64,000 nucleotides of DNA from Bacteroidota bacterium (GCA_947457395.1 CANGVA010000004.1:124001-188000), one strand, 5' to 3'; counted from the first letter of the stretch, positions 47,500 through 60,601 are shown. The notes: generated by a model from the letters alone, not told the origin. A program made the numbers and translations.

Positions 47500-48813
47500 A
47501 TGAAAAAACTACTCCTTATTTACCTAATTGTTTTATCTTTAAATGCTCACTCACAGCTTTACTTTCCACCTCTTACCGGAAATACATGGGATACTATTAG
47601 TCCGCAAACCCTTGGATGGTGCACCAATAGGCTCGATTCCTTGTATAAAATGCTGGATGAAAAAAATACCAAGGCATTTATTGTACTAAAGGATGGCAAA
47701 ATAGTGATAGAAAAATATTTTGATTCTTTTACCCGTGATTCTTCCTGGTATTGGGCCTCTGCCGGAAAAACCATTACCTCAGTGTTGATTGGTATTGCCC
47801 AACAGGATGGAAAACTCAAGATTACAGATTCAACATCAAAATACCTGGGTGCAGGCTGGACATCATGCCCACCCGATAAGGAAGGTAAAATTACCATTCG
47901 ACACCAACTAACCATGACTACAGGAGTGGATTATGCCGTGCCCGACTGGAATTGCACCACTCCGGCTTGTCTGAAATATAAAGCAGATGCCGGAACGCAA
48001 TGGTTTTACCACAACGCCACTTATTTATTGTTGCAAGATGTAATTGAAGCGGCAACCGGCCTTACTTTTCAGCAATACACCCAGCAAAAACTAATATCCA
48101 GAATAGGTATGGCGGGTATTTGGTTTGATGGTGTTTATTATTCAAAGCCTCGTTCAATGGCTCGTTTTGGGCTGATGGTATTAAATAAGGGAATATGGAA
48201 CAATGATACCATCATCAGGGATACAACCTATTATCATCAAATGCTTAATACCTCACAAAATTTAAATGAGTCTTATGGTTATTTATGGTGGTTAAATGGT
48301 AAACCAAGTTATCGCATGCCGGCTTCTATTCAGTTGTTTAACGGGCCGCTATTTAAACCTGCACCTACTGAGTTGGTATGCGGTTTGGGTAAGAATGATC
48401 AAAAATTATATATCTGGCCCTCTGAGAAAATGGTGATTGTTAGAATGGGAGAATCTGCTGATGCAAACAGCCTTGTTCCACTTTCCGTTGATACCCTGAT
48501 ATGGCAGGAGATGAACCAATTAATGTGTAAACCAAATGTGTCAATACAGGAGCAGGTTAAGCAAGATGAAGAGGTATTTCATGTTTATCCAAATCCTGCA
48601 ACCGGTCAATTGTTTTTTCGCATACCACAGCAAAAAGGTTCTGCCATACTACATTTATATGATATGCATGGTAAACTGGTTCGTTCCATAACTATGGATG
48701 GACAAACGAATGAAGGTTTGATTGCAATTGATGGCCTGGATGGCGGTATTTATTCCTTACGTTTATATGCAAGCAATCAGGTTTGGCTTAAAAAAATAAT
48801 TATTACAAAGTAG
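47500..48813 (+). CDS. Secreted serine hydrolase (class C beta-lactamase fold) with T9SS sorting domain
   Basis: A 437-residue exported enzyme. A signal peptide (MKKLLLIYLIVLSLNAHSQ) precedes a beta-lactamase/transpeptidase-fold domain with the SAGK motif (nucleophile Ser87, Lys90) and the YHN motif in WFYHNATYLLL. The KxG-equivalent near the domain end reads CGLGKND. The last ~80 residues are a type A sorting domain (FHVYPNPATGQLFF, IYSLRLYASN, KKIIITK), so the enzyme should leave the cell or be surface-anchored through T9SS. The substrate may be an ester or D-amino-acid peptide; unknown. Confidence 0.88.
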   Translation: MKKLLLIYLIVLSLNAHSQLYFPPLTGNTWDTISPQTLGWCTNRLDSLYKMLDEKNTKAFIVLKDGKIVIEKYFDSFTRDSSWYWASAGKTITSVLIGIAQQDGKLKITDSTSKYLGAGWTSCPPDKEGKITIRHQLTMTTGVDYAVPDWNCTTPACLKYKADAGTQWFYHNATYLLLQDVIEAATGLTFQQYTQQKLISRIGMAGIWFDGVYYSKPRSMARFGLMVLNKGIWNNDTIIRDTTYYHQMLNTSQNLNESYGYLWWLNGKPSYRMPASIQLFNGPLFKPAPTELVCGLGKNDQKLYIWPSEKMVIVRMGESADANSLVPLSVDTLIWQEMNQLMCKPNVSIQEQVKQDEEVFHVYPNPATGQLFFRIPQQKGSAILHLYDMHGKLVRSITMDGQTNEGLIAIDGLDGGIYSLRLYASNQVWLKKIIITK

Positions 48814-50485: not shown

Positions 50486-51748
50486 TTATTTTGCACGGAT
50501 AGCATCAACCGGGTCAAGTCTGGCAGCCTGCCACGCAGGTATAAAACCAGATATAACACCAATACAAACGGATACAATAATTCCCGTGAAAATATTGCCT
50601 GTTGTAAGCATCATGTCAAAATCAATTAAAGCGCTCACAGCATAGGTGATTGCTCCAACACATGCGATGCCAATGCCTCCACCGGTTATGCATAAAACGA
50701 TTGCCTCAACCAGAAACTCAATTAAGATAAAATAATTTTTTGCACCCAGCGATTTTTGAATACCTATCTGGTTGGTTCTTTCTTTTACTGAAACAAACAT
50801 GATATTGGCAATTCCAAAACCACCCACAAGCATGGCAAATCCGCCAATAATCCAACCGGCAAAGGTTATCACCGAGAACAAGTCTTTTAATGGCTCTGCA
50901 ATCAGTGTGGTTTTGTTTAGTGCAAAATTTTCTTCTTCACCAGGTTTTAATTTACGCTGCGCACGCATTATGCCTCTCAATTCTTCTTCCAATTGCTCTA
51001 GTGGCACACCTGGTGCTGCTTTCACTTGTATCTGGGCATTGGCACGATCAGAATCTATCCGAACATAATTCGCTAATGTTTTGGCCGGAATGAGCAGCGC
51101 GTTGTCCAGGCTATTGCCCAATAAACTTTCTCCTTCTTTATTTATAACGCCTACTACTTTGAATTTTCTGCCCCTAACTGAAATAATCCTGTCCATGCCG
51201 CTTCTGTTTCCGAATAAGTTCTTCGCAATGGCATATCCTAGTACAACTACATCTGTTCCATTTACAGTTTCACCTTCAGTAAAAAATCGACCTTCCAGCA
51301 GTTCAAAATTTCTTACTTTATTATAATCATGAGAAACACCATTAACATTAGCTCCTTCTGCTGTATTGCTTTCATACTTTACCGTTACACCACCCAGTTG
51401 CACACTGATGGTACTTGCTCCTGCAAATTGTGATTGTGTTTCTACCTTCCTTAATTCACTCAGCCTGGGATTTGGCCTGTTCATGTATTTCCACCACTTA
51501 TAATCACCGGAAAATGTCCAGGGCCATTTTTCAATAAAGATAACATCCTTGCCAAGTGACTCAACGCTGTTTTGTACATTCCTTTCCAGCGAGTCAACAA
51601 TGGTTAAAACAGCTATTATACAGAAAATGCCAATGGTTACACCAAGGGTTGAAAGAAACGTGCGAATTTTATTTTGCCTGAGTGCCTCAATCGCAAATAG
51701 CGTGCTTTCAAAAATCTGAATGAGTAATGTTTTTATCTCTGCCAGCAT
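50486..51748 (-). CDS. MacB-type ABC transporter permease (FtsX domain)
   Basis: A 420-residue inner-membrane protein. The first helix (FLSTLGVTIGIFCIIAVLTIV) and the preceding ALRQNKIRTF are the MacB/LolE opening. A periplasmic core of about 220 residues follows, then three C-terminal helices of the FtsX domain (GGFAMLVGGFGIANIMFVSVKERTNQIGI-type region near 285-315). It ends PAWQAARLDPVDAIRAK. No ATPase gene is adjacent, so it must pair with one elsewhere. It is the last gene of the minus-strand block, 14 bases after the TPR gene. Confidence 0.92.
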   Translation of the reverse strand: MLAEIKTLLIQIFESTLFAIEALRQNKIRTFLSTLGVTIGIFCIIAVLTIVDSLERNVQNSVESLGKDVIFIEKWPWTFSGDYKWWKYMNRPNPRLSELRKVETQSQFAGASTISVQLGGVTVKYESNTAEGANVNGVSHDYNKVRNFELLEGRFFTEGETVNGTDVVVLGYAIAKNLFGNRSGMDRIISVRGRKFKVVGVINKEGESLLGNSLDNALLIPAKTLANYVRIDSDRANAQIQVKAAPGVPLEQLEEELRGIMRAQRKLKPGEEENFALNKTTLIAEPLKDLFSVITFAGWIIGGFAMLVGGFGIANIMFVSVKERTNQIGIQKSLGAKNYFILIEFLVEAIVLCITGGGIGIACVGAITYAVSALIDFDMMLTTGNIFTGIIVSVCIGVISGFIPAWQAARLDPVDAIRAK

Positions 51749-51762
51749 AAGGCAAAGATATA

Positions 51763-52371
51763 TTATTTAATGAGTGATAATCCTTCTAAAGCAGATTTAT
51801 CTGCCGGAGATGCCAGCAATACTTTTTGAAAAAGTAATTTGGCTTCTTTTAGTTTACCCAATCTGTAATTGGTCCATGCATACATCAGTAGCGCATCATA
51901 ATCAAACGGGTAAAGGTTCACCACTTTCTCAAAGCATTTATATGCTTGTGTATATTGTTTGCGTGTATAATAAATATATCCCAGCTTGTAGTTTACAGCA
52001 GAGTTTTTAGGGTCGTTTTTTAAGATGGCCACATACATTGCCATCACATCATCCCACTTTCCCAAAGCAGCCAGGGGTAATACCTTACCTAATCTTGGTT
52101 CTATGGCATATGGCATTAATTCGATAGCTTTTTGATAGTATCCGCTAGCTTCTGCATACGTTCCCATCATATATTTGAGGTATCCAAGTCGCAAATTGCA
52201 TTCATAGCTCTGCGGATTATAAATATTGCTGATGGCTTGTGCAGCACCAGCATAATTACCAGCTTTTTCCATGGTATAGCTGCTTGCAAATGCTTGCTGC
52301 ATAGGCTGATCTTGGGCATACAATTCGCTTATTAAAAGCATGTAAAGTAAAAGAATAGAAATTTTTTTCAT
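51763..52371 (-). CDS. Exported tetratricopeptide-repeat protein
   Basis: A 202-residue protein. A signal peptide (ISILLLYMLLISELYAQ) precedes about five TPR-like helix pairs, including LGYLKYMMGTYAEASGYYQKAIELMP, KLGYIYYTRKQYTQAYKCF and AWTNYRLGKLKEAKLLFQ. Probably a periplasmic or outer-membrane-associated scaffold. Function unknown. It lies 11 bases after the barrel gene and 14 before the permease gene, so it belongs to the same unit. Confidence 0.85.
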   Translation of the reverse strand: MKKISILLLYMLLISELYAQDQPMQQAFASSYTMEKAGNYAGAAQAISNIYNPQSYECNLRLGYLKYMMGTYAEASGYYQKAIELMPYAIEPRLGKVLPLAALGKWDDVMAMYVAILKNDPKNSAVNYKLGYIYYTRKQYTQAYKCFEKVVNLYPFDYDALLMYAWTNYRLGKLKEAKLLFQKVLLASPADKSALEGLSLIK

Positions 52372-52382
52372 GGTTGTTTTAT

Positions 52383-53555
52383 TTATCTGATTAATTTTAT
52401 GCCGATGAGTGCCATTTGCAGGCTATAGTTTGTTTTACTTATAGATTCCACGCGCTTTTCATATTGCCACAATCCATACAGCGAAAGATTATTGAGTAGC
52501 ATATATTCTATACCTGCTTGTACTCTGTAATCTGTTTTATCAAATGCATTGGTAGCAAGCCAGCCGTTTTGTTCATTAAAATTATTGGTATTGGCAAGTA
52601 GATAGTTGCAGCTTATGGAAAGTCTCTTTAATGCCCAATATCTTAACTGCGCGCCATATAACAGATAACTGATGTTATTATTATAAAGATGTGTTAGCTG
52701 TATACCGGTTTCTAATTTGTTATTGAAGAAGGGATAATAATTAATGCCCACTTGTTGCTGCCATTGTGTGGTTTTATTAAAGTTAGAAAAGGCAATACTT
52801 AGCGATGTTCGCCAATTATCCAATCTTTTAGATACTGCAAGGCCTGCTAATATAGGATTAGCTCGAAAATCATTTTCCGAAAGTCCGTTCTGCATATTAG
52901 AATGGTTATAACTGATAAAATGAAACGAGGGCATGATGCTCCATTGCCTACGGAATGGAATATTGCCTGTAACATATATCTGTTGCTGATTTAATCTACC
53001 ATAATATGCTTCCTGATTTAGATGTGAAGCTGAAACGAAACCAGTTGCCTTATTAAAAACCCTGAAGCCTAATCCTACCTGGCTGTAGTATAATGTTTTA
53101 TATAATGCTTCATCACTCGATAACTTGATGCCAAATTCTGCATTTGCCAGATGCAGCAGTTTAGGGGCCGGAGCAATATTTTTATTTTTTGAATCTTGAA
53201 TAATTATCTCATATTCGTTAATTGCATACACATAATCTCCGATGTAGACATAGTTCCAGTACAGGTAATACCTGATGGCATCTTTCATAGCTGTATCCTT
53301 ACAAAATGCTAACGCTTTTTCATAATACGTTGCCGATTTCATATATCGTTGCAGTTGGAAACTTGCATACCCTGCACGCATATACAGGTAATCATGTGTG
53401 TAACCTTCGCATATAGCTTTCTCAGAAACTTCTAACAATTCTTCCCATTGCTCGGTTATCAGCAAATCATAACTCACTTCATCATAAGGTGAATATTGTG
53501 CCCGGGTACTTTGATTTAGTAACAACATAAATAGAATAGTCAGGAGTTTACGCAT
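52383..53555 (-). CDS. TPR plus outer-membrane beta-barrel protein (YaiO-like)
   Basis: A 390-residue exported protein. The signal peptide (LLTILFMLLLNQSTRAQ) is followed by TPR-like helices to about 150 (AGYASFQLQRYMKSATYYEKA, YLYWNYVYIGDYVYAINEYE). After that come alternating amphipathic strands rich in Tyr, Trp and Asn (GLGFRVFN, YLLYGAQLRYWALKRLSIS, LSLYGLWQYEKR) ending LQMALIGIKLIR. This fits YaiO-type TPR-barrel proteins, which accompany secreted polysaccharide systems, but the match is by pattern only. Its start overlaps the end of the transporter/peptidase gene by 16 bases. Confidence 0.7.
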   Translation of the reverse strand: MRKLLTILFMLLLNQSTRAQYSPYDEVSYDLLITEQWEELLEVSEKAICEGYTHDYLYMRAGYASFQLQRYMKSATYYEKALAFCKDTAMKDAIRYYLYWNYVYIGDYVYAINEYEIIIQDSKNKNIAPAPKLLHLANAEFGIKLSSDEALYKTLYYSQVGLGFRVFNKATGFVSASHLNQEAYYGRLNQQQIYVTGNIPFRRQWSIMPSFHFISYNHSNMQNGLSENDFRANPILAGLAVSKRLDNWRTSLSIAFSNFNKTTQWQQQVGINYYPFFNNKLETGIQLTHLYNNNISYLLYGAQLRYWALKRLSISCNYLLANTNNFNEQNGWLATNAFDKTDYRVQAGIEYMLLNNLSLYGLWQYEKRVESISKTNYSLQMALIGIKLIR

Positions 53556-55720
53556 TTCACCTCCTTTTGTTGGTTAATAACAAACCTATTAAGCTTTCCT
53601 TTTACAAATTTTAGTTGATAGGTATTTTTGCTAGACGCCCCAGTTATTCCATGAAGGATTACTTTACTTTCAATGCTAATTTCTTCAGGGTTATGATAAT
53701 CATCAATTCCGGTAAACGAAGATTCAAATCCCACTTTCATGAATATGCGGAACGGGGCAATTAAATCTTGTATGTATCTCAGTGGACCTGCAAAAAATTC
53801 ATCGGCAGGCAAATGGTCTGTTAGTTTCATCTGATGATAATAGCCCAATAAAATCTTTTGAGTAGCCAGATAAAAATGATATAGGATGCTCTTTTTCTCA
53901 CCGTAAAATGCTGTTGCATAAAATAGTGTTCCGTTGTTTACAAAAAACAAACTCGACTGACTTTGTTTACAGTATATATAAGTTTGGTTCCAAGCGTTTA
54001 CCTTAAACTCCCAATGCAGGTTGATGTATTTGCCATTCTCCTCGTAGGTTAATTCCATTTTGTTACCCGGAATAAAGCGTAAGGCATCCTGCAGTAAAGG
54101 TGTGGAAATGGGTTTAGATACAGATGCGCCTGCCTGTGGAACAGTAAATGAGTGAAATTGATAGTTATTGCCTTCTTTTGTAATAAAGTAGCTGAGTGGA
54201 TATTTTAGCGTAGCCGAACCGATATAAGGAGTGCTTTGCAACTGAAAATGTAAATGTGGTTCCGGTGATCTTCCGGAACTTCCACATGTTGCCATCAACT
54301 GGCCCCTGTGTACAAAGTCGCCCGGCTTTACCACAATACTTCCTGCTTTCAGGTGGCTTAGTTTACTGTATAATGCTTCGGCATGTTTAATGATGATGGT
54401 ATTGCCCCAATTTTGTTGCACATTGATATCTTTTATCGCATTATCCTCTACGCCATCTACCACTGCGGATATATATCCATCTGCAGGTGCCAGCACAGGC
54501 AGGTTATAGCAATAGTAATCTGTAAGTGTAGTTCCCGGAAGTTTAAAAGTGTGCTTGGTCTCATCTACCACCACAAAATCAAGTGCATATTTCCAGTCTT
54601 CTTTATGCGTAATATTTCCTTCATATCCCTGCGAAACATTCCACTCTCCGAAAAAGGGCAGATGAAAGTGGATTAGTGTATCGTTTTTAAAGCGTTCAAT
54701 GCTGTTTAGGTAGTGGTATAAATTTTTTTCAGGTGAATAAAATTGCTGAGGGACCAAAACCAGGCGTTTAAAATGAACACGGCTGTTCAGCAGCATCATA
54801 AACAAAATTACCACTAAATTAAATGGCAATGAAAATAAGGGTAGCTGATAAATATATAGGAATCCGGATAGTCCGCTAATCAATACAGCTATGAGAGGTG
54901 AGGCCAGTATCACCAGAAAATAAGATGCCCGTGAAGGCACTAGAAAAAAGCCACCAAGGGTAATGGCAGTTAGAATAAAATTAAAGCCGATGTATGAATA
55001 CTGCAACTGGCTGAATTCGCCCGCTACCAAATAATAAAACATATATCCGATGGAGAAACCAAGTATGGAGAGCGAAAAGGCAATTCTTGACCAGATGATG
55101 ATACCTGCCGTCATAATTAATCCAACCAACAAATTGTATTGAAAAAATATGGCAGATACCGACCGAAGGTAAACATCTGCAAAATGGGGTAGGCTTAATT
55201 CGTTTATTTTTTCTACCAGGCTCACCAGCGAGTTACCACCTAATTGGAATAACATATTGGCACGGTAAAGGCCTTCTGTGCTTAGATGTATCGAGCCAAA
55301 AGAGCGTATGCCAATCATGGTAATCCATAATGTTAGTAAAAAGGAAAGACTCATGGCCGGTACCTTATATTTATGTAGTAAGTTATAGAACAATACCGTG
55401 AGCAATACACTTAGTAAGGCGGCACTTACCACAATACCAATAAATGCAGCACTTAGATCGTAATAGCTGCCCAGCACCATACCTGCCATGAGTGCATTAA
55501 AACTATAACTGCCTTGTGCCAGTGCCTGCCTGTCTAAACCTGCCCAGTAGGCAAATAATAATGCAGCGATTGCTGCAATAGCCCCGCTGGTTCCTGTATT
55601 GGGATCAATAAAGGACGAGGCAAACAATAGCCAAGCAAAAATTTTATTATCTGCGAAAAACAGCTGAGAGTAGCTATTGATAATACCTTTTAAAAATATT
55701 TGTCTTAAATGATTTACCAT
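53540..55720 (-). CDS. Urea transporter (UT) domain fused to M23 metallopeptidase
   Basis: A 726-residue two-part protein. Residues 1 to about 316 are a polytopic UT domain: DPNTGTSGAIAAIAAL and LAQGSYSFNALMAGMVLG are the urea-transporter motifs, and the second half repeats the fold (FFLVPSRASYF). Residues from about 345 form a LytM/M23 domain. Zinc ligands His372 (THKED) and Asp381 (YALDF) and the HLHF pair (His489, His491) are present, with a catalytic-type His in KLSHLK and the usual ADGYISAVV and GSSGRSPEPHLHF. A ~230-residue beta-rich C-terminus of unknown type follows. It lies 60 bases after the decarboxylase gene and overlaps the barrel gene. M23 would be periplasmic. Confidence 0.88.
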   Translation of the reverse strand: MVNHLRQIFLKGIINSYSQLFFADNKIFAWLLFASSFIDPNTGTSGAIAAIAALLFAYWAGLDRQALAQGSYSFNALMAGMVLGSYYDLSAAFIGIVVSAALLSVLLTVLFYNLLHKYKVPAMSLSFLLTLWITMIGIRSFGSIHLSTEGLYRANMLFQLGGNSLVSLVEKINELSLPHFADVYLRSVSAIFFQYNLLVGLIMTAGIIIWSRIAFSLSILGFSIGYMFYYLVAGEFSQLQYSYIGFNFILTAITLGGFFLVPSRASYFLVILASPLIAVLISGLSGFLYIYQLPLFSLPFNLVVILFMMLLNSRVHFKRLVLVPQQFYSPEKNLYHYLNSIERFKNDTLIHFHLPFFGEWNVSQGYEGNITHKEDWKYALDFVVVDETKHTFKLPGTTLTDYYCYNLPVLAPADGYISAVVDGVEDNAIKDINVQQNWGNTIIIKHAEALYSKLSHLKAGSIVVKPGDFVHRGQLMATCGSSGRSPEPHLHFQLQSTPYIGSATLKYPLSYFITKEGNNYQFHSFTVPQAGASVSKPISTPLLQDALRFIPGNKMELTYEENGKYINLHWEFKVNAWNQTYIYCKQSQSSLFFVNNGTLFYATAFYGEKKSILYHFYLATQKILLGYYHQMKLTDHLPADEFFAGPLRYIQDLIAPFRIFMKVGFESSFTGIDDYHNPEEISIESKVILHGITGASSKNTYQLKFVKGKLNRFVINQQKEVKCVNS

Positions 55721-55780
55721 TAAAAAGTAATAATTGTTCTATGACAACATGCTTTATGATACTGAAACATCAAACTTTTG

Positions 55781-57154
55781 TTATGATAGTTTAAATGTGT
55801 TTAAAATATCCGGCATAACCTCATTCATCTCAATATTCTCAAGTGTTTCACGTTTGCGAATTAAATGACTTTTGCCATCCATACCCAACAGCACCACAGC
55901 CGGACGCATGGCAATAAATTGCATCCATTGCGTCATATTGTAGGCGCCAACGGTATGTACTACGACATGGTCGTCTTTTTTAAGCGGTGGCAGCGTAGCA
56001 TGGTCTCTGATAACATCAATATTCATGCAAAGCGGCCCATACATGACGGTGTCTTCTGTATAGGAACTAAACTCCTGTGCCGGGCTTATTTTATGATTAT
56101 ACCAGAATGAAGTGAACATGATGTTTACGCCAAAATCGAGTATGGTAGCCCTGCGGCCGTCAGCCAGGCGTTTATTGGCAATTACGCTGCCCAGCAAATA
56201 GCCGGCTTCATCAATCAATGCTCTTCCTGTTTCCAGAATAAGCAATGGTAAATCTTTATCAGTAAAGCCGGCATTAAGCAATGCTGTGCAAATGGCTTCG
56301 GCAAACTGATCAAATGTTGGTGACGTATCCTCTCCCGGTAAATACGATCCTTTTAAAGTATTTTTTGAGGCAAACCCTCCGCCCATATCAATATATTGGA
56401 TTTGCTTATTAAACTTTTGTTTAATACCTAGAGCAAGGTCAGATAGTTTGTAGGCAGCTGTGGCATATGCACTTGGAGATAGCATGAATGTTCCAATATG
56501 GCAATGCAAGCCTATCAACTCCAGCTTATCGCCTAAAATTATTTTATTAATGGCGTCCCATGCCTGTCCGTTTTCGTAATTAAAGCCAAATCTGTCCCAC
56601 ATCGGATAAATGCCTGTATCCATATTTACACGGATGGCAACATTGGGGCGTTTTTTCATTTCTTCTGCCAATTCAGTTAATCGGTATAACTCATCCAGAT
56701 GGTCGATATGAATAGGCGAGTTGTTATTGATGGCGGAACGTAAATCTTCATCTGTTTTATCAGGGCCATTAAAGATTACACGATTACCCGGTACGCCATT
56801 CTTTAATGCTTTGGCATATTCAAAACCAGATACCACTTCGGCCCATGAGCCTTCCTGATGAAAAATATTGCAAATGGCATTAATGTAATTTGTTTTATAA
56901 CTCCAAGCAAATTGCACCTTAGGATACCTTGTTTTAAAGGCTCTGTTTGCTTCCTTGTATGTATTGCGTATGGTTCTTTCACTCAATACAAATACGGGTG
57001 ATCCGTATTGCGTAATTAAATCTTTAACTGAAAAAGTATCAATATGCGTTACAGGTGCATATTCTGTTTTGGTGCCAAATTTATTCATGAGGCCTGTATT
57101 GATTCGCTGAATCAGTGGGCGCTCATATAGTGCTTTCTTGTTGCTCATCTTCAT
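55781..57154 (-). CDS. Fold-type III PLP-dependent decarboxylase (LysA/ODC-like)
   Basis: A 457-residue alanine-racemase-fold decarboxylase. The PLP lysine is Lys87 in FAWSYKTN. GLHCHIGT, DMGGGFAS and ETGRAL are the PLP-phosphate and substrate-loop motifs. Cys376 in YGPLCMNID is the second-subunit catalytic Cys of diaminopimelate/ornithine-type decarboxylases, but the LysA consensus CESGD is altered to CMNID, so the substrate is probably not diaminopimelate. GAYNMTQWMQF replaces the usual GAYxxxxxxxFN. The ATG at 57154 leaves 13 bases after the ATP-grasp stop; a longer start would overlap it. Substrate may be a basic amino acid or an amino-acid conjugate. Confidence 0.88.
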   Translation of the reverse strand: MKMSNKKALYERPLIQRINTGLMNKFGTKTEYAPVTHIDTFSVKDLITQYGSPVFVLSERTIRNTYKEANRAFKTRYPKVQFAWSYKTNYINAICNIFHQEGSWAEVVSGFEYAKALKNGVPGNRVIFNGPDKTDEDLRSAINNNSPIHIDHLDELYRLTELAEEMKKRPNVAIRVNMDTGIYPMWDRFGFNYENGQAWDAINKIILGDKLELIGLHCHIGTFMLSPSAYATAAYKLSDLALGIKQKFNKQIQYIDMGGGFASKNTLKGSYLPGEDTSPTFDQFAEAICTALLNAGFTDKDLPLLILETGRALIDEAGYLLGSVIANKRLADGRRATILDFGVNIMFTSFWYNHKISPAQEFSSYTEDTVMYGPLCMNIDVIRDHATLPPLKKDDHVVVHTVGAYNMTQWMQFIAMRPAVVLLGMDGKSHLIRKRETLENIEMNEVMPDILNTFKLS

Positions 57155-57167
57155 TGTATTAATTGTT

Positions 57168-58214
57168 TTATAGTTCTCCAAAGGTTGAAATGTTCTCAAA
57201 CTCTTTCAGGTCCACAATCTGATCCCACGAGTAGCGCACAAACATCTTACCTACTTCATACCTTTTATAAGGATTTATGTCTTCCCCAAGAGCCATTCTA
57301 ACCAGTGCTTCCGGATGATTTTGGCCTGATCCGGTTGCCAGATGCACCCATGCAGGAAACCGTGGATTGATTTCAATCAGGTAGTACTCGTTTCTATCGG
57401 TTCTGATCATTTCCAGTTCAAAACCGCCCCGCCATTTATTTCCTGCTACCATCTTTTCAGCAATCTTCATCAGTTCTCTATCTTCCAGTGTTACACCTGC
57501 CCAGGCCTTGCCCTTATCGGTAATATAGGTTTTGCGCATGGGCACAGCTCCGGTAAGTTTGCCTTTGCCGTCACCCAGCCCGGTTAGGTTTACTTCGGTA
57601 CCCGGAGTGTATTGCTGAATGATGATGGGTAACCCCCATTTACCACTTATTTTATTAAAATAAGCCATAGCCTGATCCGGTGAGTAAGCAACTGAAGCAT
57701 CATAAAATTTTCCTTTTACCACCAACGGATAGCCAAATTCATATGCAAGGCTGTGAATTTCGGCCATGCTATTTATCATTCTACTTTTCGGAACTTTGAT
57801 ACCGTATTTTTCTCCGAATGCAGGTAAAGCAGATTTATGACGCTCTTCAAATTGTTCCAGTGTTGGCAGGAATGTGGAAATACCCATGCTTTTCAGGGTA
57901 TCCTGCAGTTTAATAAAGTTGTACAGCTCGGCATCAAAATTGGGGATGATTACATCTAGTTTTTCCTGCTGATGTATGTACTCCAGTCGAGTAAGCAAAC
58001 TTTGCTGACCTGCTGAGGGTAATGGAATCTGGTAAGTTTTATCAACAACCTCGTGCATATAAATACCGGGTTCCATGGCGTCATAGGAAAGACCAATGAT
58101 GCGGCAGTTAAAATGCTTACTTTCCTTTAGTCCACGTATTACAGGTATACCAGGTCCCGGACTATCAATGTTATTTAATCCTGTAACTCCAACCGTGATG
58201 TTGCGCTTAGTCAT
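57168..58214 (-). CDS. CarB-like ATP-grasp ligase
   Basis: A 348-residue ATP-grasp enzyme. It opens VGVTGLNNIDSPGPGIPVIR, a pre-ATP-grasp nucleotide-like fold; the ATP-grasp body shows PLVVKGKFYDAS (phosphate-loop Lys), IIIQQYTPGTEVNLTG and the Mg2+-binding EINPRFPAWVHLA with its Glu and Asn. This is the CarB/PylC-like branch, which makes amide or ester bonds through acyl-phosphates. It overlaps the PqqD-like gene by four bases (ATGA), suggesting a stoichiometric complex, and precedes the decarboxylase. It likely joins an amino acid to a carrier or peptide; substrate unknown. Confidence 0.88.
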   Translation of the reverse strand: MTKRNITVGVTGLNNIDSPGPGIPVIRGLKESKHFNCRIIGLSYDAMEPGIYMHEVVDKTYQIPLPSAGQQSLLTRLEYIHQQEKLDVIIPNFDAELYNFIKLQDTLKSMGISTFLPTLEQFEERHKSALPAFGEKYGIKVPKSRMINSMAEIHSLAYEFGYPLVVKGKFYDASVAYSPDQAMAYFNKISGKWGLPIIIQQYTPGTEVNLTGLGDGKGKLTGAVPMRKTYITDKGKAWAGVTLEDRELMKIAEKMVAGNKWRGGFELEMIRTDRNEYYLIEINPRFPAWVHLATGSGQNHPEALVRMALGEDINPYKRYEVGKMFVRYSWDQIVDLKEFENISTFGEL

Positions 58215-58453
58215 TGTTCGGTAAGCTTTAACTGTTCCAGCATTTTAAAGAAATCATAAAGATCCTTCTCAACCGTTTCCTTATCGGTTTGATAAGCATC
58301 CAGCAAGCTTTTCCTTATTTCATTTTCAGACTTTCCGTTTTTCAGTAGTTTCAAAATATCAAGTCCTATGGGGTTTACAGAGAAGGAATCACCGGTTGCA
58401 GGATTAAATACAAATCCTGTATCGCTTAGTGCGAGGTTTTTTAACAAATTCAT
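58211..58453 (-). CDS. PqqD-family protein (RiPP recognition element-like)
   Basis: An 80-residue protein with the PqqD pattern: LALSDTGFVFNPATGDSFSV, VNPIGLDILKLLKNGKSENEI, then a helix pair DLYDFFKMLEQLKL. PqqD folds are peptide-binding winged helices that present precursor peptides to modifying enzymes. No precursor-like small gene is recognised next to it, and no radical-SAM enzyme is present. It overlaps the ATP-grasp gene. The 41-base gap from the Spy/CnrX-like gene shows no -7 element, so it is probably read from further upstream. Confidence 0.85.
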   Translation of the reverse strand: MNLLKNLALSDTGFVFNPATGDSFSVNPIGLDILKLLKNGKSENEIRKSLLDAYQTDKETVEKDLYDFFKMLEQLKLTEQ

Positions 58454-58494: not shown

Positions 58495-58998
58495 TTATGG
58501 GAGTGGTGGTCCACCCGGTTGTCTTAATTCATGAGGTGGAGGTGGTGCCTGCAATCCTACCATTTTTATAACCTGATTAATGATTGCATCAAAATGTTGT
58601 TTTTGTTGGTCATTGCATAATTCTCTTACCTGCCTGAAATGCTCAAAAGTTATTTTCTCTGCTTGCTCCTCGCATGCAATTACTTTTGCCAAATGATCAT
58701 ATGCAGCTGCTTCATTGCCTTTCGTTTTTAATCCAGCATACATCTCTTCTTTTTCTGATCTGATTTGCTCACGTAATTTTTGAATGGTATCAAAGTGTGA
58801 TTTACGAAGCAGTTCAAAGGCTTCGGCCTGCTCATCGGTAAATTCCAGTTTGGTAATAATGAATTCTTTTGGGCTCATGGCACCAAAACCGTGTGGGTTT
58901 GGAGGGCGCATCATCCATACACCGGCAAGAGTTGCCAGGTTAATGCAAATAAGCAATACCACCAGTATGCTCAATATTTTTACTTTATCCAGTTTCAT
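58495..58998 (-). CDS. Spy/CnrX-like periplasmic protein, membrane anchored
   Basis: A 167-residue protein with one N-terminal membrane helix (ILSILVVLLICINLATLAGVW), a periplasmic helical hairpin (KLEFTDEQAEAFELLRKSHFD, IACEEQAEKITFEHFRQV) and a Pro-rich tail. This is the Spy/CpxP/CnrX type, called periplasmic heavy-metal sensors or LTXXQ-like chaperones. It follows the probable anti-sigma gene after one base, so it is likely part of the ECF sigma regulatory set. A chaperone or sensor role is inferred. Confidence 0.75.
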   Translation of the reverse strand: MKLDKVKILSILVVLLICINLATLAGVWMMRPPNPHGFGAMSPKEFIITKLEFTDEQAEAFELLRKSHFDTIQKLREQIRSEKEEMYAGLKTKGNEAAAYDHLAKVIACEEQAEKITFEHFRQVRELCNDQQKQHFDAIINQVIKMVGLQAPPPPHELRQPGGPPLP

Positions 58999-58999
58999 G

Positions 59000-59308
59000 T
59001 TAGTAGATGTAAAGGTTATCTGTTTCGAAATATTCTTGTGTTACTACCAGGATTTGAGTGTCTTCATTCACCTTTTTAGTAGTGTTTCTTTTATACCTTG
59101 TTACCGTGATGATGTTTAATGATAAAACGAAGAGAATCATGGCAGCCAATCTCAATAACATCTTATTGCTGTAATAAACCGGCTCAGGTAATTGCCTGCT
59201 GAGTTTGTGCATGATTTTTCCAAACAGAAATGGGGAGGCTTCTGCTCTCGTCATTCCGTTCAAACTTTTCATGGATTGCTCAATCTGCTCTTGTAAGGTT
59301 GGTTTCAT
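59000..59308 (-). CDS. Single-pass membrane protein, probable anti-sigma factor
   Basis: A 102-residue protein with a cytoplasmic N-terminal half (SMKSLNGMTRAEASPFLFGKIM), one membrane helix (RLAAMILFVLSLNIITV) and a short periplasmic end. It lies directly after the ECF sigma gene (three-base gap) and before the Spy-like gene. This order and the topology suggest an anti-sigma factor, though no zinc-binding ZAS motif is present. Function is inferred from context. Confidence 0.65.
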   Translation of the reverse strand: MKPTLQEQIEQSMKSLNGMTRAEASPFLFGKIMHKLSRQLPEPVYYSNKMLLRLAAMILFVLSLNIITVTRYKRNTTKKVNEDTQILVVTQEYFETDNLYIY

Positions 59309-59311
59309 GAT

Positions 59312-59926
59312 TTAGAAGATTAGAAGAAGAGACAGCAAATAACTTGCGCCACCTTGGATGTTATTTTTGTAATAATCAGATAACGAGTGTCTTAAATTTT
59401 CGTTGGCCCTAAATAAAAGTGATTCTACTGCAGAGGTGGTGGTTTGCATTACCTCCGCAATTTCAGCATAGGTAAGACCTTCCATTTTATTCAAGGTAAA
59501 TGCGGTTTGTTGCTTTTTAGGTAATTGGCTTATGGCAAGAAAAAGCACACGAGCATGTTCCTTATTTTCCAACAACACTCCCGGATGATCAAAATGTGCT
59601 TTGTCTGCTTCTAGTTCATTTTCTGCGCCCCATAACGATTTAACAAAGGCAAAACGTTTGGCTGCCTTCTTCTTTTTCTGCACATCCAGGCATTTACTAA
59701 TGGCAATCCTGTAAAGCCATGTTTGCAAACTAGATTGGCCTTTAAATGCGGCAATCGACCTAAATACCTCAATAAAAACTTCCTGTGTGGCATCTTCTGC
59801 TTCCTCTGTTTGTTGCAGCATACCCAAACAGGTATTGTAAATCTTATTTCCATACACACGATAAAGTTCCCTGAAAGCTTGTTCTTCGCCTGAAATGATT
59901 TTTGCTATCAGTTCTTTTTCATTCAT
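59312..59926 (-). CDS. ECF-type RNA polymerase sigma factor
   Basis: A 204-residue sigma-70 family regulator. Region 2 is visible as FRELYRVYGNKIYNTCLGM with DATQEVFIEVFRSI, followed by LQTWLYRIAISKCLD. Region 4 carries LPKKQQTAFTLNKMEGLTYAEIA and the recognition helix TTTSAVESLLFRANENLR. I start at MNEKEL (59926); 33 upstream residues are not sigma-like. It is first of the probable sigma/anti-sigma/Spy set, and its own regulon could include the PqqD-ATP-grasp genes downstream. It is unusually terminated by a short hydrophobic tail (YLLSLLLIF). Confidence 0.93.
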   Translation of the reverse strand: MNEKELIAKIISGEEQAFRELYRVYGNKIYNTCLGMLQQTEEAEDATQEVFIEVFRSIAAFKGQSSLQTWLYRIAISKCLDVQKKKKAAKRFAFVKSLWGAENELEADKAHFDHPGVLLENKEHARVLFLAISQLPKKQQTAFTLNKMEGLTYAEIAEVMQTTTSAVESLLFRANENLRHSLSDYYKNNIQGGASYLLSLLLIF

Positions 59927-60053
59927 GATATTAAAGGCAATATGGTATTTAGATTCAATAAATGCAATGTTGGCAGCAGCTGAATACTTATTTAACAGGC
60001 AAATTTCCGTCCGCAGACAGGTCATCTAGTTAATACCCGTGTTTCGTAGCAAT

Positions 60054-60111: not shown

Positions 60112-60543
60112 TTAGTCGTTCAGAAACAATCCATCCTCTTGTAATTCTTCTTTCTCTTTCCTTTTTTCTTCCGCTTTCATCTTCATCTCCTTTTTGCGTT
60201 CCAGTTTATATGCAGTATACTTTTTCTTCTGCTCATCGCTCAGTAAAGCATCGATGCGGATATCGGTATTTTTTAGAATATTTTTCATGGCTGCTTTTTT
60301 GGATTCCGGTGTATGATCTGGATTTTTTCTTTCCTTATGCAGTTGTTCCTGTTGTTCTTTCAACAAGTGTTTTATTTTTTCTTTTTGGTTTTCCTGTATG
60401 CCAACCTTTTCACAAAATTCAGCAAACCTTTTTTCTCTCATTTCCTGTTTTTGGGCCAATCTTTCACCCTTGGGTTTCTGTGCCATTACTGCTGTGGTAA
60501 AGACCCATAACAAAACCATGGCCATGCATTTAAATAATTTCAT
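60112..60543 (-). CDS. Spy-like exported protein
   Basis: A 143-residue exported protein, highly charged and helical. The signal peptide (MKLFKCMAMVLLWVFTTAVMAQ) is preceded by an eight-residue extension that I exclude by starting at the ATG at 60543. The mature part has LTxxQ-like helix turns (VGIQENQKEKIKHLLKEQQ, DALLSDEQKKKYTAYK) of the Spy/DUF4890 type and a Lys/Glu-rich end. Periplasmic chaperone or metal-binding role inferred. It has its own -7 element and terminator. Confidence 0.75.
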   Translation of the reverse strand: MKLFKCMAMVLLWVFTTAVMAQKPKGERLAQKQEMREKRFAEFCEKVGIQENQKEKIKHLLKEQQEQLHKERKNPDHTPESKKAAMKNILKNTDIRIDALLSDEQKKKYTAYKLERKKEMKMKAEEKRKEKEELQEDGLFLND

Positions 60544-60601
60544 AGTATTATTTCTTTTGTTGTTCATCAGATTGTAGTGTGGTAAAATGGTTTAATCGCC
60601 C

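Follow-up and report, generated by a model that had tools for sequence, protein, structure and literature searches.

The window analyzed here, a stretch of 64,000 nucleotides from a Bacteroidota bacterium, carries on its minus strand a compact, self-contained cassette of six genes (58453-51763). The first gene (58211..58453) encodes a PqqD-like protein of 80 aa with the fold of a RiPP recognition element (RRE; Pfam PqqD, 2.5e-11) and overlaps by 4 bases the gene encoding a CarB-like ATP-grasp ligase (57168..58214; 348 aa; ATPgrasp_Ter, 6.8e-10). After a gap of 13 bases follows an FslC-type fold III PLP decarboxylase with the loop CMNID (55781..57154, with its ATG at 57154; 457 aa; Orn_Arg_deC_N, 3.6e-30; Orn_DAP_Arg_deC, 4.1e-11), and after a further 60 bases a 726-aa protein (53540..55720) in which a channel of the urea-transporter (UT) fold is fused to an M23 metallopeptidase domain, followed by a beta-rich C-terminal region (UT, 1.2e-52; Peptidase_M23, 6.7e-15). 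An initial annotation of the window had described these four genes and their spacings as a cassette, and all four open reading frames were indeed recovered on the minus strand, each with Pfam support. That set is genuine but incomplete, as two downstream envelope genes belong to it as well. One encodes a 390-aa protein in which a signal peptide precedes TPR repeats and a beta-barrel of the outer membrane (52383..53555; identified with an AlphaFold2 model and Foldseek) and overlaps the UT-M23 gene by 16 bases; the other encodes an exported TPR protein of 202 aa (51763..52371; best match among Pfam TPR families, 4.6e-17). A MacB/FtsX-like permease gene (50486-51748) lies 14 bases past the cassette. 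It was kept out of the cassette, being present in 2 of 21 neighbourhoods, both from the window's own genus. Elsewhere in the window (47500-48813), a serine hydrolase of the beta-lactamase fold is encoded that carries a Por tail for type IX secretion.

Among 296 evenly drawn Bacteroidota genomes, the ligase, the decarboxylase, and the full-length UT-M23 protein were found in an identical set of 27 genomes and in no others, a placement expected with a probability of ~1e-38 if the three were independent, uncorrected for shared ancestry. Nine further genomes matched the UT-M23 query by the M23 part only, with far lower scores. When 84,980 species genomes were scanned with the ligase alignment, at least 555 relatives emerged, of which the best 80 were analyzed. 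By title, these 80 derive from Bacteroidota or neighbouring FCB lineages, with the exception of a metagenome-assembled genome titled Bifidobacterium, which is evidently mislabelled. Alongside the 80 ligase genes, the loci contained 79 decarboxylase, 74 UT-M23, 74 PqqD, 64 barrel, and 59 TPR genes; all six were present in 56 loci, in a single order and strand in 51, and many loci are incomplete because contigs are cut. In the window's genome and its relatives, the first five genes occurred in all 21 neighbourhoods and the sixth, the TPR gene, in 20. Rare adjacency had been named beforehand as the observation that would speak against a cassette, and the four genes initially described turned out to be almost always adjacent. 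The identical genome sets show that the association does not arise by chance. The proposal that the four genes form a real functional unit tied to the envelope is supported, and the evidence for the cassette is stronger than initially described.

Median identity was highest for the decarboxylase (68%) and the ligase (64%) and lowest for the barrel (22%), and such a decrease from the cytoplasmic enzymes to the outer-membrane protein would be anticipated for constant chemistry behind a variable surface. The presence of the cassette is patchy inside the family too, which fits a unit that is gained and lost as a whole. The six-gene block has been kept in genomes related to Bacteroidales, Flavobacteriales, Cytophagales, and Ignavibacteria, yet it occurs in only ~9% of the sampled species; this combination of retention and patchiness suggests that the product is conserved and has a genuine role in ecology. 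One genome carries two copies of the cassette near both ends of a single contig (G178:C1:14-4962 and 3731287-3736378). One of its two UT-M23 copies is broken, and the duplicate may be an assembly-end repeat.

The CMNID loop initially reported for the decarboxylase was confirmed and does not vary among the 16 relatives aligned. The protein scored higher against the NCBIfam model of FslC (232.6 bits; cut-off, 500) than against that of lysA (218.8 bits; cut-off, 297.9), while remaining below both cut-offs. Its nearest solved structure is likewise FslC (7kh2, 8.3e-71), and in the tree it joined FslC, itself a long branch, apart from LysA, with a support of 100/98. An identity as the LysA diaminopimelate decarboxylase was rejected based on the score under the lysA cut-off and the presence of CMNID rather than a CExGD loop, and a role in lysine biosynthesis was discarded as the window's genome has a separate LysA-like homologue (at C12). 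The fold, the CMxxD loop, and the GAYN segment are common to the window decarboxylase and FslC/FigC, the N-citrylornithine decarboxylase of the rhizoferrin pathway, whereas FslC Arg387, which is involved in citrate binding, aligns with Gln409 and FslC His357 with Ile379. As in FslC, a Met stands beside the catalytic Cys. The specificity-helix segment of the window protein (TSFWY) contains neither Asp nor Arg. In FslC, the Met next to the Cys (Met355) replaces the acidic residue that grips a free side-chain amine, and the clade comprising FigC, SbnH, AcsE, MccE, and BtrK has no polyamine role, its substrates being conjugates (PMC7857480). Due to the Met beside the Cys, the lack of Asp or Arg in TSFWY, and the Gln where FslC has its citrate-binding Arg, the substrate would be an amino acid that is already conjugated, with a partner that is probably not citrate. 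The expectation of a substrate other than that of LysA is therefore supported, but the accompanying statement that such decarboxylases act on basic amino acids does not hold for a protein whose closest solved relative is FslC/FigC, from a subfamily that takes conjugated amino acids (PMC7857480). No IucA/IucC (NIS) synthetase was found in any of 30 cassette genomes, and an NIS siderophore pathway of the rhizoferrin type was rejected on this basis. Decarboxylases from Antarctobacter (in tandem) and Natrialba were also set aside, as their neighbours differ from those of the cassette. On the Antarctobacter heliothermus plasmid (L133:4908-7945), the two tandem fold III decarboxylases are followed by a 76-aa ORF without a Pfam match and a methyltransferase.

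Among solved structures, the ligase matched 2pn1 (3e-11) and CarB (1a9x, 6.7e-11), and its residues E281, N283, P284, and R285 are invariant in 16 sequences. On a plasmid of Streptomyces zaomyceticus (L132:5998-8274), a single 758-residue protein combines an ATP-grasp ligase homologue with a CMxxD decarboxylase. In its N-terminal part, 309 columns align with the window ligase at 30% identity (pairwise E, 5e-32), and the decarboxylase that forms its C-terminal part contains GRSCMEND. This natural fusion supports the view that the ligase and the decarboxylase would perform consecutive steps, also outside Bacteroidota. Downstream of the fusion gene lie a 195-aa ORF and then a fatty acid desaturase gene.

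The predicted model of the UT-M23 protein (pLDDT, 89) matched urea transporters with a Z score of 36.9 and LytM domains with a Z score of 15.0, and the zinc-ligand and catalytic residues of the M23 domain (H372, D381, H456, H489, and H491) are invariant in all 30 UT-M23 proteins compared. In canonical urea transporters, the C-terminal side is cytoplasmic. The last membrane helix is followed by conserved positive charges (R314, K332, and R343), which suggest a cytoplasmic placement of the M23 domain. Cys404 and Cys479 are both Cys in 23 of 30 proteins, and this pair would instead fit a periplasmic disulfide. The C-terminal beta-rich region (residues 535-726; 53540-54118 in the window) has no Pfam match; it is apparently shortened or missing in versions of ~573 aa (e.g., L040 and L080). 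The AlphaFold2 model of the barrel protein (pLDDT, 90.1) shows helices at residues 24-121 and strands at 134-389, with OmpG (7e-11) and also FadL as the nearest Foldseek matches and BcsC (1.5e-8) further down. Exporters of the BcsC and PgaA type similarly join TPR repeats to an outer-membrane barrel. In contrast to these, the cassette protein has a short TPR region and ~14 strands, and the conserved gene set includes no polysaccharide synthase.

Overall, the six-gene cassette appears to join an amino acid to a partner, strip a carboxyl group, and pass the product across the envelope. We put the probability that it is a dedicated unit for making and exporting (or displaying) an amino-acid conjugate at roughly 0.5. 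The data show the six genes with their folds, the intact catalytic residues of the M23 domain, and the inheritance of the genes as a block. For the order of steps, the substrate class, and the direction of transport, we infer the following scheme. The ATP-grasp enzyme would activate a carboxylate and couple it to an amino-acid side chain (or the reverse), with the PqqD-like protein helping the ligase by presenting or carrying one substrate. The FslC-type PLP enzyme would then take the alpha-carboxyl off the conjugated amino acid to give an amine. The product could exit via the UT-like channel while the fused M23 peptidase works locally on the cell wall, and the TPR-carrying barrel, with help from the second TPR protein, could provide passage through the outer membrane. 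Some points count against this scheme. An M23 domain acting on the wall would need the side opposite to the cytoplasmic C terminus of canonical urea transporters, and PqqD proteins are normally peptide binding, yet no conserved peptide gene was found within 700 bases. Furthermore, the UT pore of known members passes small solutes only, so that the conjugate would have to be small or take another route. The interpretation offered in the initial annotation is partly supported, being right in outline and wrong in the substrate class.

Every cassette protein belongs to a known family. As the cassette matches no described pathway that was tested or found, and no published description of its pathway or product was encountered in the open-licence literature, we rate the six-gene system as new as a system, with a putative product and mechanism. 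If the proposed making and export of a conjugate is true, it would add a route of export based on the urea-channel fold and perhaps also carrier proteins of a new kind. None of the six proteins had a PADLOC match at an E value of 0.001, and a role in anti-phage defence was discarded accordingly.

The PqqD-like protein is a member of the PqqD/RRE fold family (PF05402, 44.2 bits; cut-off, 23.4) and falls under the cut-off of every NCBIfam PqqD type. The HPr-rel-A PqqD system was rejected, as TIGR04353 scored 32.1 bits against a cut-off of 35 and the conserved set includes no HprK-like gene. In most relatives checked, the cassette gene is the genome's sole PqqD gene. Its role may be to bind a peptide from a distant gene, to influence the ligase, or to serve as the carrier itself. 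The last of these options leads to a possible, if unlikely, alternative that resembles butirosin biosynthesis, in which the PqqD-like protein is a carrier (as BtrI), receives an amino acid from the ATP-grasp enzyme (as from BtrJ), and keeps it bound while the PLP enzyme removes the carboxyl group (as BtrK does). The BtrI/BtrJ/BtrK arm follows the same logic of a small protein, an ATP-grasp ligase, and a conjugate decarboxylase, with the same three functions, and BtrK is related to the window decarboxylase (3.9e-33). Ser23 of the PqqD-like protein could be the attachment site. Together with Asn27, Gly13, Gly21, and Ala8, it is invariant in 75 of 75 sequences, whereas the solved PqqD proteins TbiB1 and TfuB1 have a Tyr at this position. 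However, Ser23 may be structural, and BtrI is an acyl carrier, while its counterpart here has the PqqD fold, which is distinct from that of acyl carriers and lacks the phosphopantetheine helix; no ACP family matched the 80-aa protein. In addition, the BtrK loop is CTPED, compared to CMxxD here. The BtrI/BtrJ/BtrK triad is not known to include membrane export genes. A bolder version, in which a conjugate on a PqqD-fold carrier is decarboxylated while attached and freed via a UT-derived channel and its own outer-membrane pore, would represent an undescribed, phylum-wide class of small molecules, and we regard it as speculative and on balance unlikely.

PqqD proteins normally bind peptides, and the closest solved chain to the cassette protein is TbiB1, a lasso-peptide PqqD protein (1.4e-10). 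A RiPP with a distant precursor would use the PqqD-like protein to bind the leader, the ATP-grasp enzyme to modify the peptide, the decarboxylase to trim a side chain or the C terminus, the M23 domain to cleave, and the barrel to export. Besides this similarity to lasso-peptide leader binders, the formation of graspetide bonds by ATP-grasp enzymes (PMC8939145) is in its favour. We nevertheless consider it improbable, as the ligase matches CarB-like families, with no graspetide maturase model among its hits, and no conserved ORF of 18-90 aa (known neighbours aside) was found within 700 bases of ~100 cassettes. A RiPP with a local precursor was rejected for the latter reason. The PqqD-like protein shares fold and Pfam family with the lasso-peptide PqqD proteins but is not accompanied by a nearby precursor peptide. 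The radical-SAM, lanthipeptide, and HprK partners initially listed as missing are indeed not present with the cassette.

The genes upstream of the cassette bear on a further alternative. At ~41 bases from the PqqD gene, an LTXXQ/Metal_resist (CnrX/Spy-like) protein is encoded on the minus strand (58495..58998; Metal_resist, 2.2e-5; LTXXQ, 3.2e-5). This gene belongs to a lineage-specific regulatory module and is probably on one transcript with the cassette. On the same strand follow a likely anti-sigma protein (59000..59308), assigned from its position and without a Pfam family above cut-off, and an ECF sigma factor (59312..60025; Sigma70_r4_2, 5.7e-15; Sigma70_r2, 2.5e-14); in 5 of 21 neighbourhoods, the cluster of the anti-sigma candidate (c7) adjoins the sigma factor. 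A second short signal-peptide protein, Spy/LTXXQ-like and without a significant Pfam match, is encoded upstream of the sigma factor (60112-60567). Across lineages, the upstream neighbours vary between AraC regulators with an HMA-like N terminus, response regulators or LytTR proteins, and LTXXQ/Metal_resist proteins. An AraC domain was detected in 28 of 68 upstream genes and a weak HMA match in 2 of 68 (E, 0.01), and the first Cys of the HMA-like domain is often Ser. The HMA-like AraC family was observed upstream of the cassette in ~30 loci (e.g., L101:3356-3952). These regulators hint at an envelope or metal stress response. Given that they change from lineage to lineage and that the HMA-like domain is degenerate, metal is suggestive only and was not accepted as a defined trigger. 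In the corresponding alternative, the decarboxylated conjugate is put on peptidoglycan or lipid, and the UT-M23 and barrel proteins reshape the wall when metal or the envelope causes stress, without export of a free compound. The invariant M23 active-site residues agree with such envelope modification, as do the ECF sigma factor, the LTXXQ/Metal_resist protein, and the AraC regulators with their HMA-like N terminus. The cassette has no transferase, and the HMA match is weak with its first Cys often replaced, so that we view this alternative as quite improbable.

Bacterial urea transporters such as dvUT share their fold with UT-M23, and the pore Phe and Leu are mostly kept. Q24 and E187 of dvUT are its urea-site residues. 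While the Gln is kept at the Q24 position in 22 of 25 aligned residues, Ala occupies the E187 position in 23 of the 30 UT-M23 proteins, Gly in 3, Ser in 2, Thr and Tyr in 1 each, and Glu in none. UT-M23 further differs from dvUT in the fused M23 domain, and most of its hosts have no urease; the enzyme was clear in 1 of 30 cassette genomes, with weak matches to part of the profile in four others (E, 5e-5 to 2e-4). As the second-site Glu is never present and urease is clear in a single genome, urea is unlikely to be the cargo, and the acquisition of urea or ammonia with a recruited amino-acid decarboxylase is, despite the clear UT fold, very improbable. In one genome (G062:C1:2246024-2248176), UT and M23 lie in two overlapping frames and UT contains an internal stop, consistent with a split or broken copy.
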